This document shows, one piece after another, positions 20,258 through 26,484 of a DNA stretch of 64,000 nt. Under the pieces are notes generated by a model that ran no database searches, had not been told where the DNA came from, and worked only from the letters and a program-made list of their open reading frames with translations. How positions within the stretch are numbered: position 1 is the stretch's first letter; each line of letters opens with the position of its first letter. Source of the stretch: Dysgonomonas sp. Marseille-P4361 (GTDB lineage: Bacteria > Bacteroidota > Bacteroidia > Bacteroidales > Dysgonomonadaceae); contig NZ_OPYL01000004.1 in NCBI RefSeq assembly GCF_900343125.1, forward strand, positions 186,001 through 250,000, read 5' to 3'. Both the position numbers and the translations under genes were made by a program.

Positions 20258-20809
20258 ATGACAACAGAGATAATTATAGCTGGTTTTGGAGGACAAGGAG
20301 TTTTGTCGATGGGAAAGATATTAGCATACTCAGGATTGATAGAAGACAAGGAAGTTTCATGGTTTCCATCATATGGCCCTGAACAACGAGGAGGTACTGC
20401 TAATGTAACAGTCATATTAAGCGATGACCCTATCAGTTCACCAATCGTAAACGAGTATGATATAGCAATTATATTAAATCAACCATCTTTAGAAAAATTC
20501 GAACCTCATGTTAAGCCCGGAGGTATTTTGATATATGACCCAAGCGGCTTCCAGCATCCACCGACAAGGAAAGATATTTATATATACAAAACAAAAGCGA
20601 TAGATACTGCTACCTTGATGCAGAACTCAAAAGCCTTTAATATGATCGTTCTTGGCGGATTGCTCAAAGTTAGTCCTATGGTCAAACTGGAAAATGTCAT
20701 GCTGGGACTTAAAAAATCACTTCCGGAAAGACATCACAAACTACTTCCAATGAATGAACAAGCCATTCTAAAAGGGATGGAAATTATAGAAGAAGTTCAC
20801 ACACCCTGA
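20258..20809 (+). CDS. korC: 2-oxoacid:ferredoxin oxidoreductase, gamma subunit
   Basis: From the ATG at 20258 the product is 183 residues: MTTEIIIAGFGGQGVLSMGK is the standard start of the gamma subunit, followed by WFPSYGPEQRGGTANVTV. A longer reading frame from 20159 would overlap korB and adds no homologous sequence, so it is rejected. It completes the korDABC operon. Confidence 0.93.
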   Translation: MTTEIIIAGFGGQGVLSMGKILAYSGLIEDKEVSWFPSYGPEQRGGTANVTVILSDDPISSPIVNEYDIAIILNQPSLEKFEPHVKPGGILIYDPSGFQHPPTRKDIYIYKTKAIDTATLMQNSKAFNMIVLGGLLKVSPMVKLENVMLGLKKSLPERHHKLLPMNEQAILKGMEIIEEVHTP

Positions 20810-20810
20810 C

Positions 20811-20848
20811 AAATAAAAAAAACGCCTGATTAAAATTAATCAGGCGTT
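20811..20848 (-). terminator. Terminator shared between korC and gldN
   Basis: Perfect 13-base arms AACGCCTGATTAA / TTAATCAGGCGTT at 20821-20848. The A-run at 20815-20822 gives a T-run on the minus strand, so it mainly ends the gld operon, but it can also stop korC transcription. Confidence 0.88.
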
Positions 20849-20870
20849 CTCATTATATATCGCAAATATC

Positions 20871-21737
20871 TTATCTTCTATTTTGAGCTGTATAAAATCT
20901 AGATTGAATATAGTCTAATTCATTCTCTATACGTATACGCTCATTTATTAATTCTTGCATATCTGTAAAGTGATGAGATAATTGTCTCAATCCCACTTGA
21001 TAGATACAACCTCTATAATATCTATTATTAATGATATCAGACATAGAAGCATTAGTTAAAGCAGGAAGAACATTCTTGAAAGAAACTAAAGTCTCTGATC
21101 TTGATAAATATGCACTTATATCATCCATAGAGATCCAAAATAAAGGGAAATATTTTCCTCTTTCGAACAAAACAGGACAGATATGAGTTACTCTAGCTTC
21201 TCCTTTTGATGTTTTAGAGTCGAAATGCCATTTTTCTTTTACCAAGTAATAAGTTATATCCTCAGATGGGATATCGCTTCTTTTTACTGCATATGTTCCA
21301 TCTGTATTAACAGTAAAAGGAATTGCGCACTCTTTCAAAGCTTCAGCACCTTCCAGACGATTTTCTGAATCTAAGATAGGTTGAGGATTAAACTTATAAA
21401 TAGGAGTTTTGTTTGCACTCATTAGATCTACCAATAATGTAAAAAGATTTACATCTCTTTCATTTGTCTTTATAGGTAGAAAGAAAGAATCATTTCCATA
21501 TGTATCTTTCCCTATTTGTCTGTAGATATCTTTTGACCAAGTTGATGTAGAAAAATCATTTTTAAAGCTTTCTATAATAGAGAATTCTCTAGTACTTGGT
21601 GATGCAACTACAGCCTCTATTTCATAAGATACAACATCTACCTGATCGACTACTTTTTCTTTAATTATGTTGTCTTGTGCAATAAGCGAGCTACAAAAGA
21701 AAAGCCCACTAAGCATAAATGAAACAATATATTTCAT
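20871..21737 (-). CDS. gldN: Type IX secretion / gliding protein GldN (PorN)
   Basis: A 288-residue protein with signal peptide (MKYIVSFMLSGLFFCSSLIAQ). GldN/PorN binds GldK/PorK in the periplasmic ring beneath the outer membrane. Family-like stretches are VVSYEIEAVV, SKDIYRQI, FTLLVDLMSANKTPIYKF and EKWHFDSKTS. Last gene of gldKLMN, 15 bases after gldM, with the terminator at 20811-20848. Length is usual (about 280-330). Confidence 0.93.
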   Translation of the reverse strand: MKYIVSFMLSGLFFCSSLIAQDNIIKEKVVDQVDVVSYEIEAVVASPSTREFSIIESFKNDFSTSTWSKDIYRQIGKDTYGNDSFFLPIKTNERDVNLFTLLVDLMSANKTPIYKFNPQPILDSENRLEGAEALKECAIPFTVNTDGTYAVKRSDIPSEDITYYLVKEKWHFDSKTSKGEARVTHICPVLFERGKYFPLFWISMDDISAYLSRSETLVSFKNVLPALTNASMSDIINNRYYRGCIYQVGLRQLSHHFTDMQELINERIRIENELDYIQSRFYTAQNRR

Positions 21738-21752
21738 AATACAATATTTGTG

Positions 21753-23321
21753 TTAATTAATTCTTACTACCATTGTGTTAAGTTCTCTCTCCCCATCAGG
21801 TCCTTTAACCTTAATCTTTGTAATAAACAATTCAGAACCTCTAGCTAAGCGCTTGATCTGCTCTTTTTGCCTATCTGAAAATTTGGCTCCATTTGACAAT
21901 TCCGGAGAAGCATTATTCATTGCGTCAAGAGAAAGAGTCGTAAAGCTTGTTACTGTAAACGGAATATTTAAAATTCCATCATCAATTGCAGCTTTTAATT
22001 CATCGGTGCCCAAAAGAACTGATCTTGAAAGATTTCCTCTTTTAAACATTTTAGCTTTCCCTTCTGCATCATTATAGGCTATGTATGGTGTAGGGTCAGG
22101 TAATCGTCTTATACGAAATTCTTTACCCGCGACAATTGTTCTTAAAGCTCCGTTTACTCTTGCCGAAACCGAAATCACAAATTTCTGTCCTACTTGAGCT
22201 GTAGCAGGTGCAGCAACCCAGTTTTTACCAGACTTAGTCAATGTTCCTCCTTTTACTGCTGTTGCTACAATATCTTGACTAGGTATTCCGGGAACCGAAA
22301 TACTTATTTCATTCGGAATTCCGGCATATACAACATCCATCAAAAGAGGAGCAATAGTAGCCATTGGTTCAATAACAGTATATTCTTGTGTAAAATCTCT
22401 ACGCAAAGAATTTCCCATCCGATCCAACAACTCTATATAACCATTAAATGATTTTGTTCCTACAGAAGCTGTGCCTACTTCATACAAACCATTATTATCT
22501 AATGGCAACTCTTTACCATCAATTACAACCTTAGGGCGCTGAGTAGTATCTACTGCAGCGAGAATAACATTTGCCCGATACGGAAGACCTTGCATTACTA
22601 TATTGGACTGAGGAACTACAAATGCACTCAATTCATTAACACGCAAGTCTTTCACATCAATATCCTGAACTAGATTATTCAGCACCTCTCCTTCAGCTTG
22701 TCTAACATTCATCTCCAACTCTGTAAGTAGAGTTACAGCTGCAATACTAGGCATATTCTCGAAGGAAGCCTGCAACCAGTTCTTTCTATCTTTTCTAGCC
22801 CTTTCAGATGGCTCTGTAGATAAAGTTCTCCTTACTACATTTTGTTTGATACTATCCGAAATATACACGAGCATATTTTCTCTATATGCATCCAACATTT
22901 CTTTTAGTCTTTTTCCTTGTCCGCCGACAGGAGCCATCATCACTTCAGAAGAGGGACCTAATTTATCTTTTTTCTTAAGATTATCAGCATCTGCATCAGA
23001 TCCATCAGTCTTTCGAGCAATATCTTCTTTCAATTTTTGAATAAACAGAACGACCGAATCGGACTGCAACTTTACCTTCTTAGAAAGCTCGTATGAGTCT
23101 CTCGTTTTTTCAGGATTACTAGTATACGATACATTTATATCTGAATAAAGCTTCTCGTTACGTTCATCTGCAATCTTAATTGATTCCTGAAGATTATCGT
23201 TCATCAACACAAACCCATCTAAGACTTCTGTGGATATATTTAAGGCAAGCATAGCGATAAAAACCAGATACATCAGATTTATCATCTTCTGCCGAGTCAT
23301 TTGCCCTTTACTTAATGCCAT
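21753..23321 (-). CDS. gldM: Type IX secretion motor protein GldM (PorM)
   Basis: A 522-residue protein with a short basic N-terminus and one transmembrane helix (about 12-33, MINLMYLVFIAMLALNIS), then a long periplasmic part. GldM forms the proton-driven inner-membrane motor with GldL and reaches the GldKN ring. Periplasmic D1-D4-like domains cover about residues 35-522. The conserved KMINLMYLVFIAMLALN start fits the family. Confidence 0.94.
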   Translation of the reverse strand: MALSKGQMTRQKMINLMYLVFIAMLALNISTEVLDGFVLMNDNLQESIKIADERNEKLYSDINVSYTSNPEKTRDSYELSKKVKLQSDSVVLFIQKLKEDIARKTDGSDADADNLKKKDKLGPSSEVMMAPVGGQGKRLKEMLDAYRENMLVYISDSIKQNVVRRTLSTEPSERARKDRKNWLQASFENMPSIAAVTLLTELEMNVRQAEGEVLNNLVQDIDVKDLRVNELSAFVVPQSNIVMQGLPYRANVILAAVDTTQRPKVVIDGKELPLDNNGLYEVGTASVGTKSFNGYIELLDRMGNSLRRDFTQEYTVIEPMATIAPLLMDVVYAGIPNEISISVPGIPSQDIVATAVKGGTLTKSGKNWVAAPATAQVGQKFVISVSARVNGALRTIVAGKEFRIRRLPDPTPYIAYNDAEGKAKMFKRGNLSRSVLLGTDELKAAIDDGILNIPFTVTSFTTLSLDAMNNASPELSNGAKFSDRQKEQIKRLARGSELFITKIKVKGPDGERELNTMVVRIN

Positions 23322-23364: not shown

Positions 23365-24183
23365 TTAGAAATTATTGGGGTTCATATTATTGTTATTATT
23401 ATTTGTAGTCATCGCCTGCAACAGACGTGCATATACATTATTCAATGCTTCAATATGCTTAGTCATTTTAGCTGTTTCCTCTCTGAACATATAGCTATCA
23501 CCAATAGCTCCATCATAGAGATTCTTCATTCTTTGCAGACTATCATTAATATATCTGATGGCGGACATTTGCTCTGTTATTGTTTGCAACTGACCATTGA
23601 ACACATCATTTAGTCCTTTAATATTCTCATTTAATGTCGCAAGATTTTCAGCAAACTCGTGTGTCCCTGAAAGCTGTTTAGATATATCTTCTATTTTCTT
23701 TGAAGTATCATCTAAAGATTGTGCTACACCAGGATCAAATGCGCGATGAGCACTTTGTTGATCAACTGGTATAGTTTGAGTTCCAACAGAAGCCGAATTA
23801 ACTACACCTCCTCGAGGATCTCCAGCAATCACAACTACAGAACCTTGTTGATTCATTGTTTGCTTATCCATCTTGTTCTTATTGGATGGTATGGCTTCTA
23901 CTGCCGGAGTTATAGCAGAACCTCCTCCTATAATTACACCCGCTTGCCCCCCATCCGATGATGGGACATCATGAGAAGAATAGTCTAGTCCTGCCGCAAT
24001 AAAGACAAGGACTTCAACTATCATTCCCGCCATTAAAATCCAATCACCACCAGGGAAATGCATGATTTTGAACATAACACCAAGTATAACTACGGCAGCA
24101 CCCCAGCTATAAATGATATTAAACATTATCTGTCCTTTTCTACTTGCAAGAAAACGTTTTAGATTATGAGCTACATTCCCCAT
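23365..24183 (-). CDS. gldL: Type IX secretion motor protein GldL (PorL)
   Basis: A 272-residue protein with two transmembrane helices (about 20-45 and 50-68). The second contains the acidic residue in MIVEVLVFIAAG that is proposed to take part in proton flow. GldL pentamers surround a GldM dimer. The cytoplasmic tail after residue 70 has a predicted coiled coil (LATLNENIKGLNDVF...) and ends in an asparagine run (about eight Asn in NNNNNNMNPNN). Tight operon with gldM (43 bases). Confidence 0.93.
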   Translation of the reverse strand: MGNVAHNLKRFLASRKGQIMFNIIYSWGAAVVILGVMFKIMHFPGGDWILMAGMIVEVLVFIAAGLDYSSHDVPSSDGGQAGVIIGGGSAITPAVEAIPSNKNKMDKQTMNQQGSVVVIAGDPRGGVVNSASVGTQTIPVDQQSAHRAFDPGVAQSLDDTSKKIEDISKQLSGTHEFAENLATLNENIKGLNDVFNGQLQTITEQMSAIRYINDSLQRMKNLYDGAIGDSYMFREETAKMTKHIEALNNVYARLLQAMTTNNNNNNMNPNNF

Positions 24184-24267: not shown

Positions 24268-26451
24268 TTATCTGATTTTACCTTTTTCATCAACACCCCA
24301 TGTTCTCACACATCTGAAGCCGATATAAGAACGAGATTTATCTTGAAATTCGATAGTTCTATCACCAGCCTTAACTGATGCATCTTTCCAAGAACCACCT
24401 TTTACTATTTTACGTTTTAGTATAGCCGGATCAGACAATGTAGCTCTATAGCTAAAGTCAGGATTAACTTCATCTGTCATACGATCGATAGATTCTGTAT
24501 AAGATGTAACAGTCCATTCGGCAACATTGCCCACCATATCATACAAACCAAATCGGTTAGGCAAGAAAGTAGCTACCGGAGATACTAAATCTTTTAAATC
24601 TTCAGATGCTCTAAAGTTTGCATGAGCTAATCCCTCTGTTGTATGAGTTTTATCCGAGTACCATGAATAATCTAAATCTGAACGTCCATTTCTTGCAGCA
24701 AATTCCCATTCTGCTTCAGTAGGTAGACGATATCCTTCAAAACCACTCAAGTCACATTTACCTTCTGCGATGTAACGATCGGTTCTCCAAGCACAATAAG
24801 CTTCTGCAGCATCCCAGCTAACGCCAACCACAGGATGATTGTCATAAGCCTTGGTTGTAAAATAATTTTTCACATATTGTTCGCCTTTTGCATTAGCAAA
24901 ATCTGTTGCCCAAGCATTTTCGTTTGGATAAATATTTACTATATATGTATGAGTAAAATCGACTGGATTACCGAAAGACTCTCTCGAAAGCGTTTCTCTA
25001 ACAATTTCACCTCTAGTATTTACATAAGCTGTATCTTTTGCAATAACAATAGAATTCGCTTCGCCTGATTGCTTTTTAGAAATGAATTGATAAAAGCTTT
25101 TTGTATCAAACCAGTCATATTTAAAATTCATAGCAGACGGGATTATACTAGTTTGCATTGAATTAACCGAACTTGGACCAACTACACTTGCAATAGCCTC
25201 AGCTTCTCTAGCTGTTGGATTCTTCCAAGGAATTGGTTTTAACCAATTCACACGCTGACCTACCGAACCGTATTCACCCGACATGTCTTTTTCAGGTCTT
25301 ACTAATACTTTAAATGTAGGATCACCACCAAATTTAGGATCAGATAAGCGTTCTCTGATAATAGAGTCACGTACCCAATATACAAATTCTCTATATTGTT
25401 TATTTGTCACCTCTGTTTCATCCATCCAGAAAGGACTTACTGCTACAAGTTTACGCGGCACAGTATCACCCCATAGAGGGTCAATTCCTGTCCCCATTTC
25501 AATATTTCCTCCAGGAACGAGAACCATCTTATCACATGCTCTGGCAATATTGTATGGTTGAACTAAACGTGATTCAATAGCAGGGTCAATGTATCTAGGT
25601 TTACCAAATTTATAAGTTACCCCTAAAGTAGCTTGAGCAATTCCATTATTACTAAAGTCTCCTTTTTGTCCATCAAACTCATCTGAGAGTAACACACCTC
25701 TTCCTTCAAGATAAACTTGGAAGTTCTTAGCAAAAGTAAAAGCAATGTGCCCCCCTACGCTACCACCAAGAAATGTATTATTCAGAGTTCCATGATGAGC
25801 AAAGCGTTGATATATACCTAATCCCACAAAAGGATAAATCTCCCATTTACGCAATGGTGTGTATCCGTTTATAGCATTAAGAAAGTTTAAAGCGACATCT
25901 CCTGTAGCACTAAAATAACGCATATGCTGCATATAATAATGTCCGTTTTCTTTCCAACCGGTAGGATGCCAAACATCAACACCAGACATATCAACCTTAC
26001 CATAAGCATAGTCTACACCTTCAACCATACCTAGATAATCCCAATAAGGGTCTTTAGTCATATTTTTAATATCCAAACCAGTGGATCCGTCTTTCCCCCA
26101 ACGGGTGTACGTTCCATTATACCCATCATTAAATCCGTGCAAAGAACCGCCGGATAACTGCAAACGAAGAATAAGCAAATTACCTATCCTACGTCCGATA
26201 GTAAGCGTTGGAGCCAAAGTTATTCTTTGGTTCAAACTAATTCTATTTCCAGGAACACCATTGTCGTCTTCCCCGAAATACACTTGTCCCCCTGCTCCTA
26301 ATGAGATAAACCAGAGAGGATCTTTAAGCAAATATTCATTTCTTGAAGGAACTGAATATAGTCCAGATTGATCAGTTTGTGCATAAGACACTATTGATAC
26401 ACAGATCAATAACAGTGAAGTTAGTAAAGTTTTTTTGTTCATAAGTTTCAT
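24268..26451 (-). CDS. gldK: GldK/PorK fused to an N-terminal outer-membrane beta-barrel domain
   Basis: From the ATG at 26451 the protein has 727 residues, far longer than usual GldK/PorK (about 460-490). A type I signal ends near VSYAQ. There is no lipobox Cys, although GldK/PorK are normally lipoproteins. Residues about 20-285 look like a transmembrane barrel (KDPLWFISLGAGGQVYFGED, LAPTLTIGRRIGNLLILRLQ, FLGGSVGGHIAFTFAKNF, AQATLGVTYKFGKP) of the OmpA-like Bacteroidales type. From about 305 the formylglycine-generating-enzyme-like GldK domain begins (MVLVPGGNIEMG, FWMDETEVTNKQYREFVYW, YRLPTEAEWEFAARNG, NVAEW, VKGGSWKD, YIGFRCV). The fusion replaces the lipid anchor. The 26485-26492 promoter excludes the longer start at 26487. 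Confidence 0.88.
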   Translation of the reverse strand: MKLMNKKTLLTSLLLICVSIVSYAQTDQSGLYSVPSRNEYLLKDPLWFISLGAGGQVYFGEDDNGVPGNRISLNQRITLAPTLTIGRRIGNLLILRLQLSGGSLHGFNDGYNGTYTRWGKDGSTGLDIKNMTKDPYWDYLGMVEGVDYAYGKVDMSGVDVWHPTGWKENGHYYMQHMRYFSATGDVALNFLNAINGYTPLRKWEIYPFVGLGIYQRFAHHGTLNNTFLGGSVGGHIAFTFAKNFQVYLEGRGVLLSDEFDGQKGDFSNNGIAQATLGVTYKFGKPRYIDPAIESRLVQPYNIARACDKMVLVPGGNIEMGTGIDPLWGDTVPRKLVAVSPFWMDETEVTNKQYREFVYWVRDSIIRERLSDPKFGGDPTFKVLVRPEKDMSGEYGSVGQRVNWLKPIPWKNPTAREAEAIASVVGPSSVNSMQTSIIPSAMNFKYDWFDTKSFYQFISKKQSGEANSIVIAKDTAYVNTRGEIVRETLSRESFGNPVDFTHTYIVNIYPNENAWATDFANAKGEQYVKNYFTTKAYDNHPVVGVSWDAAEAYCAWRTDRYIAEGKCDLSGFEGYRLPTEAEWEFAARNGRSDLDYSWYSDKTHTTEGLAHANFRASEDLKDLVSPVATFLPNRFGLYDMVGNVAEWTVTSYTESIDRMTDEVNPDFSYRATLSDPAILKRKIVKGGSWKDASVKAGDRTIEFQDKSRSYIGFRCVRTWGVDEKGKIR

Positions 26452-26484
26452 GTCAGTTGTAATAACTCTATATAACAAGTGGAG

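Follow-up and report, generated by a model that had tools for sequence, protein, structure and literature searches.

The closest described relatives of the protein analyzed here belong to the type IX machinery, in which PorK (GldK; model TIGR03525) is held by a lipid anchor and forms, together with PorN (GldN), a ring below the outer membrane. According to the available part of PMC12635249, the known ring comprises about 33 subunits (31–35-mer) with an outer diameter of 540 Å and an inner diameter of 380 Å, and the PorG barrel is disulfide-linked to GldK Cys343 in F. johnsoniae or PorK Cys356 in P. gingivalis, which lie on the side of the ring that faces the membrane. The same source reported in November 2025 a covalent attachment of outer-membrane barrels to the PorK/GldK track as it moves, as in SprF-GldK of gliding Flavobacterium. 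The protein described here, which we call FK, resembles PorK/GldK in fold, in sequence, and in its place before porL-porM-porN, but it carries an N-terminal OmpA-type barrel instead of the lipid anchor, has a leucine and a loop deletion at the site of the PorG-reactive cysteine, contains in most species an extra co-varying cysteine pair, and occurs beside a canonical PorK. Like PorG (DUF6089), its barrel is a small outer-membrane barrel attached covalently to K from the membrane side; in contrast to PorG, it is attached by a peptide bond, with one barrel per K subunit, and joined at the N-terminal arm, while PorG itself is still present in the genome and shows no homology to the FK barrel in profile comparison. 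SprF-GldK likewise places an outer-membrane barrel on a moving K track, as we propose for FK, yet it does so by a disulfide and with another barrel family (PMC12635249, available part), and the window's genome has no GldJ above the cut-off of 458 (best score 60 bits, on the canonical K). In OmpA-family proteins of Dysgonomonadaceae the barrel and the stretch right behind it are homologous to FK, whereas the C-terminal peptidoglycan-binding domain (PF00691) is replaced in FK by the PorK domain. What is new in FK is the peptide-bond link, the single barrel per subunit, and the absence of the very cysteine to which PorG is bonded. FK is a variation on the type IX ring rather than a system of its own. 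An earlier note on this DNA had seen in it a departure from the known machinery, which holds for the peptide-bonded barrel but not for a barrel on the K ring as such, already known from the PorG disulfide (PMC12635249, available part).

FK is encoded on the minus strand of the window, i.e., the whole stretch of 64,000 nucleotides from Dysgonomonas sp. Marseille-P4361 that was analyzed (Table 1). That it is a single protein of barrel and GldK/PorK domain, as first proposed from the sequence, is borne out by the domain calls and by the predicted fold of both halves: Residues 308–717 match TIGR03525 with 368.1 bits against a curated cut-off of 350 (NCBIfam), and residues 309–720 match the P. gingivalis PorK chains of cryo-EM ring entries with an E-value of ~1e-101 (phmmer). 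Structure prediction of the whole protein from 21 aligned sequences yields an eight-stranded barrel (43–284) followed by a PorK domain (304–725); its mean pLDDT is 61.5 and low across most of 595–710, but the split into two domains is clear in the model despite this modest overall confidence. In a fold search with the model, residues 304–725 match PorK, so that the PorK fold is present, and model alignments with P. gingivalis PorK give 34–37% over 371–375 residues. The start at residue 4 is common to the relatives in the alignment. A 31-base imperfect direct repeat (74%) links the FK start (26446–26476) with the inside of porM (22411–22441) and is probably due to chance. Elsewhere in the window's genome, frames of 330 and 534 residues (L003, G000:C13; L006, G000:C4:397517) weakly resemble the formylglycine-generating-enzyme-like part of FK, with E-values of 2.5e-10 and 1.3e-5.

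Table 1. Features of the FK locus and candidate PorM tip frames; coordinates are window positions unless a genome is given.
Feature	Coordinates	Strand	Description	Basis
FK	24268..26451	minus	727 aa; signal peptide, OmpA-type 8-stranded barrel, PorK/GldK domain	
FK signal peptide	26377..26442	minus	residues 4–25, ends ...SYAQ, without lipobox	sequence
FK barrel domain	25600..26325	minus	residues 43–284, 8 strands	
FK long second surface loop			about residues 108–173, in barrel domain	
FK conserved linker	25528..25599	minus	residues 285–308, contains Cys306	alignment
FK PorK/GldK domain	24298..25527	minus	residues 309–718, formylglycine-generating-enzyme-like	
Cys306 of FK	25534..25536	minus	co-varies with Cys566	
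Leu608 of FK	24628..24630	minus	aligned to PorK Cys356 (PorG-reactive)	
Cys566 of FK	24754..24756	minus	co-varies with Cys306	
porL/gldL	23365..24183	minus	sole PorL found in genome	
porM/gldM	21753..23321	minus	sole PorM found in genome	
porN2	20871..21737	minus	diverged porN/gldN paralogue, without C-terminal LW motif and tail	
Inverted repeat	20808..20861		between convergent ends of porN2 and 2-oxoacid oxidoreductase genes	
Candidate PorM tip frame	G008:C10:433107-433622			
Candidate PorM tip frame	G013:C58:54378-54878			
Candidate PorM tip frame	G017:C1:96445-96981			
Candidate PorM tip frame	G019:C380:4873-5370			

The predicted strands of the barrel (47–59, 82–88, 93–107, 174–188, 203–217, 223–241, 244–255, and 269–282) follow the order of OmpA, the second surface loop being long. 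Folding residues 1–310 alone from 18 sequences gives almost the same eight strands, and a fold search with the whole predicted model matches residues 43–284 to solved small outer-membrane barrels. Since the number of strands is even, both ends of the modeled barrel would lie in the periplasm, where the PorK domain must be. The barrel region has no match in Pfam. Against an alignment of six OmpA-family proteins, the FK barrel profile yields a probability of 100 over 284 columns, and the match extends into the stretch directly behind the barrel. PF00691 follows the barrel in each of the five OmpA-family proteins scanned (all of the six but L039), in four of them above the cut-off and in one (G027) below it; FK has no C-terminal PF00691, and FGE-sulfatase is its only Pfam match at E-values up to 0.01. 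By these profiles the FK barrel is related to the OmpA-family barrels. Of the OmpA/PorP-type barrels with which the earlier note suggested a comparison, the OmpA type matches and the PorP type does not: Alignment with the PorP/SprF profile covers 29 signal-peptide columns only (probability 35). Descent from PorG was rejected likewise, as this alignment also consists of 29 signal-peptide columns (probability 7.6); a search of FK with DUF6089 gave no match. A 663-aa OmpA-like protein of the fusion-free Dysgonomonas G027 (L042:6958-8949) has a barrel at 33% to that of FK and a TPR-like end that scores below the cut-off. Barrel-only matches with E ≤ 1e-30 occur in seven family genomes, none of them with a fusion.

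The K half of FK has lost both residues by which a canonical K is attached to the membrane or to a barrel. The claim of a signal peptide without lipobox cysteine holds throughout the alignment, where this column is cysteine in 51/51 canonical K and in 0/21 fusions; by a strict lipobox pattern the counts are 34/51 versus 0/21. The PorG/SprF-reactive column (PorK Cys356, GldK Cys343) is cysteine in all 63 canonical K and leucine in all 19 distinct FK sequences longer than 650 aa (in an earlier, smaller count Cys 51/51 and Leu 20/20, one further FK being incomplete). FK sequences moreover lack five residues slightly behind this column, which corresponds in the window's protein to a deletion after residue 615, just behind Leu608. 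The PorG proteins of Dysgonomonas keep two cysteines within their last eight residues at 23 of 24 loci, the remaining locus being misread; because these cysteines are kept and FK has a leucine, bonding of PorG is still open to the canonical ring, whereas FK cannot bond it by that residue. The spacing is C-x-C in 20 genus members and C-x-x-C in G026, G027, and G012 (L051, L053, L066), the same three genomes that cluster with one another in the tree of canonical K. Outside these sites most of the PorK sequence is retained: FK keeps the canonical consensus at 133 of 168 conserved positions, and the changed ones are most frequent in two regions, the N-terminal arm and the loop of the PorG cysteine (11/16 versus 24/152 elsewhere; Fisher p 1.6e-5, for regions picked after the cysteine result). 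In the available part of PMC4980022, Lys39 of the N-terminal arm and Lys480 and Lys483 of the C-terminal tail of P. gingivalis PorK cross-link to PorG; for this reason, the fusion point of FK lies near a site at which the machine is known to hold a barrel. As all FK sequences form one clade, the loss of the lipobox, the loss of the PorG cysteine, and the gain of the barrel count as one co-occurrence and not as 19.

Most fusions carry a further pair of cysteines, namely Cys306 in the linker, 24 residues past the last strand of the barrel, and Cys566 in the K domain: 16 fusions have both and four have neither, one more sequence ending before the second site. Cys566 is not the PorG site of PorK, which is the leucine mentioned above. 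As judged from this co-variation, a candidate Cys306–Cys566 bond may pin the linker either to its own K domain or to the neighboring subunit; the intersubunit option arises because the PorK N-terminal arm lies over the neighboring subunit (PMC12635249, available part).

The gene order on the minus strand is FK-porL-porM-porN2. The product of porN2 scores 83.8 bits with NCBIfam, just below the cut-off of 85.9, and the inverted repeat behind it is probably a shared terminator. A second locus of the same genome encodes porP, a lipoprotein porK of 470 aa, and a porN of 347–357 aa, with no L or M between them; the genome further contains one PorG with C-tail cysteines, one Sov, and one PorP-family gene. 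Because a lipoprotein PorK of the canonical kind is encoded elsewhere together with PorP and PorN, FK is a putative additional ring subunit and not a replacement. The different assembly envisaged at the outset is consequently upheld as far as the fused barrel and the missing lipid anchor are concerned, and has to be amended in that the canonical PorK/PorN pair is kept as well. This arrangement recurs in the genus: By counts in which some genomes enter twice, 21 of 22 FK loci read FK-L-M-N2 (the remaining one ends inside FK), all 44 K loci from other genera have the order K-L-M, and the canonical K of the genus is directly followed by N in 21 of 22, with N also adjoining K in the 22nd (G012). 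Wherever a fusion genome has a full M (20 of 20), this gene adjoins FK, and FK lies downstream of PFOR in most fusion loci with a readable upstream side. L-M without FK is found in three genus members (G012, G027, and G028), and in G028 the PFOR gene is directly followed by L and M. The FK-L-M-N2 and P-K-N1 operons of G008 (L078:938-16176) are ~6 kb apart on one strand; both K genes share a contig at ~60–125 kb in G005, G007, G009, G010, G014, G017, G020, and G024.

Among 25 Dysgonomonas genomes, the search for the same fusion that the earlier note had called for returned FK in 21, canonical K in 22, and both in 20; neither was found in G016, which is 51% complete. The FK loci include D. mossii DSM 22836 and D. 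hofstadii DSM 104969, and dN/dS is well below 1 in six pairs, with both halves of FK under purifying selection. The frameshift or misassembly once suspected is rejected on these grounds, and the chance that FK is a pseudogene in decay, or arose from an error of sequencing, assembly, or annotation, is next to nil. Replacement of the canonical ring by FK is equally rejected, given the canonical PorK in 22 genomes. The motor and the translocon, in turn, are single: A full PorM is present once in 22 of the 25 genomes, a PorL frame once in 23, and PorG once in 24, never more than one in each case, and Sov is found in all 25, as two pieces in two fragmented genomes. Type A CTD cargo is encoded in all 25 by a model that also matches in 2/14 control genomes, above the cut-off in one; since cargo is ubiquitous, type IX secretion presumably works throughout the genus. 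G012 and G027, although devoid of FK and N2, encode PorK and PorN1, L and M, as well as Sov, PorG, and CTD cargo, which makes FK dispensable for having the basic system.

So far, FK has been found in this genus. In an order sample of 393 genomes from 204 genera, the barrel matched, among the matches listed, in four of the five sampled Dysgonomonas genomes only, and every other frame listed was at most 535 aa long. Of the best 80 among 197 relatives, L113–L130 are fusions, a set that overlaps with the 25 genomes and is not independent of them. Absence from the phylum sample is weakly supported, because the strict threshold left only 19 of its 247 genomes. Seven of the 18 fusion loci among the relatives are filed as Prevotella sp. 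(L116, L117, L119, L124, L125, L129, and L130) and look like misnamed Dysgonomonas.

Whether FK would enter the canonical ring or form its own was judged from the subunit contacts. In the available part of PMC12421860, neighboring PorK subunits of P. gingivalis are cross-linkable via A168 with T236 or V239, PorN Trp278 contacts PorK Phe334, and PorK Asp198 and Asn244 are further PorN contacts; these numbers refer to the mature protein, with a shift of 23 inferred from the chain numbers in the fold-search match. Of 63 canonical K, 59 have A at the first of these positions, 58 have T at the second, and 51 have V at the third; of 19 FK sequences, 16 have Y, 13 have M, and 15 have M there, the window's own FK having Y, N, and A; across the K–K contact segments, FK differs from K with a Fisher p of 0.011, for segments chosen post hoc after PMC12421860 (available part). 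The position of Phe334 is occupied by alanine (18) or serine (1) in FK. PorN1 has a conserved C-terminal Leu-Trp (41 and 40 of 46), the tryptophan of which is probably Trp278, and PorN2 has at this motif Phe in 19/19 followed by Tyr (12), Asp (5), Ser (1), or Thr (1). Asp198 and Asn244, on the other hand, are kept in FK in 19/19 sequences each. These substitutions argue with moderate strength for a matched FK–PorN2 pair rather than free mixing. A ring in which occasional FK subunits sit among canonical PorK–PorN as extra anchors or PorG-like pushers would agree with the largely kept PorK core, with the joint occurrence of both K types in 20 of 25 genomes, and with PorG itself being substoichiometric to K (PMC12635249, available part), but the bulky residues at the PorK–PorK contacts and the constant company of a PorN2 devoid of the conserved C-terminal motif make it unlikely.

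Our preferred reading, which stands about an even chance of being right, is that FK and PorN2 constitute a second, barrel-anchored ring or track that shares the PorL–PorM motor and is tied to the outer membrane through a peptide bond. FK would be a PorK/GldK paralogue: An OmpA-family barrel would have been joined to a second PorK copy while porN was duplicated too, and FK and PorN2 would polymerize side by side like PorK and PorN below the outer membrane. The barrel would thread every FK subunit into the membrane with its N and C ends in the periplasm, thereby replacing the lipid anchor, and the peptide bond would supply the link between barrel and ring that the PorG disulfide provides in canonical PorK. 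The single PorL–PorM motor encoded in the FK operon would drive this ring as well as the canonical PorK–PorN1 ring. FK would then be track and barrel client in one: Its extracellular loops may push surface or translocon partners, a role also ascribed to PorG, or the purpose may lie in moving these surface loops themselves.

A ring of the known dimensions would have room for the barrels. An 8-stranded barrel is ~25–30 Å wide, and the calculated spacing at the mean diameter of 460 Å is ~44 Å per subunit, so that one barrel per subunit fits. If the FK ring turns, all barrels must move through the membrane together, and about thirty barrels per ring would add drag, which counts against the FK ring. 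More tentatively, one proton-driven motor may serve two rings of different make, a canonical lipid-anchored PorK–PorN ring that pulls PorG by its disulfide and a second ring with a barrel on every subunit, i.e., a crown of ~30 barrels, pinned by Cys306–Cys566 in most species and driven as one body.

The location of L and M beside FK and N2 in all fusion genomes having them could also mean that the roles are reversed, with FK–PorN2 as the main motor-coupled ring and canonical PorK–PorN1 as an accessory. G012 and G027 have K, N1, and L-M but no FK or N2, so that K–N1 with L-M is presumably sufficient, and the sole PorG keeps cysteines suited to the canonical K; this assignment is quite improbable.

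In the tree, FK does not fall among the K of its own family and sits on a very long stem (1.45 changes per column); horizontal gain is not decided by this position, since such placements on very long stems mislead. The long stem leaves room for a change of function, and together with the grouping of the barrel with the OmpA family it fits a static envelope protein, whose K domain would form with PorN2 a fixed scaffold or a vesicle or shape factor undriven by the motor. We regard this as improbable in view of the constant linkage to porL-porM and the retained PorK fold with most of its conserved positions. In the M tree, from which G028 is absent, G012 and G027, both without the fusion, are nested next to a genome that has it, but an AU test does not reject the fusion genomes as one clade (p 0.237); this leaves undecided whether FK was lost secondarily or gained late, and G012 and G027 may have lost it or may never have possessed it.

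Within its scope of titles and abstract openings, and with preprints and most subscription papers outside its coverage, a literature search returned no description of a barrel–GldK/PorK fusion or of a Dysgonomonas with two copies of PorK. Nature seems to have arrived at the barrel-on-track idea independently in FK, in which the barrel is fused and the unneeded cysteine is gone. It offers a handle, free of the PorG disulfide, on whether the ring turns and pulls barrels along in the membrane, and raises the question of how one motor would serve two rings. Finally, four of the 25 genus genomes contain, beside the full PorM, frames of 341–372 residues that are possible stand-alone PorM tip domains (Table 1); their similarity to the GldM model is limited to its C-terminal part (positions ~330–521) and scores below the cut-off.
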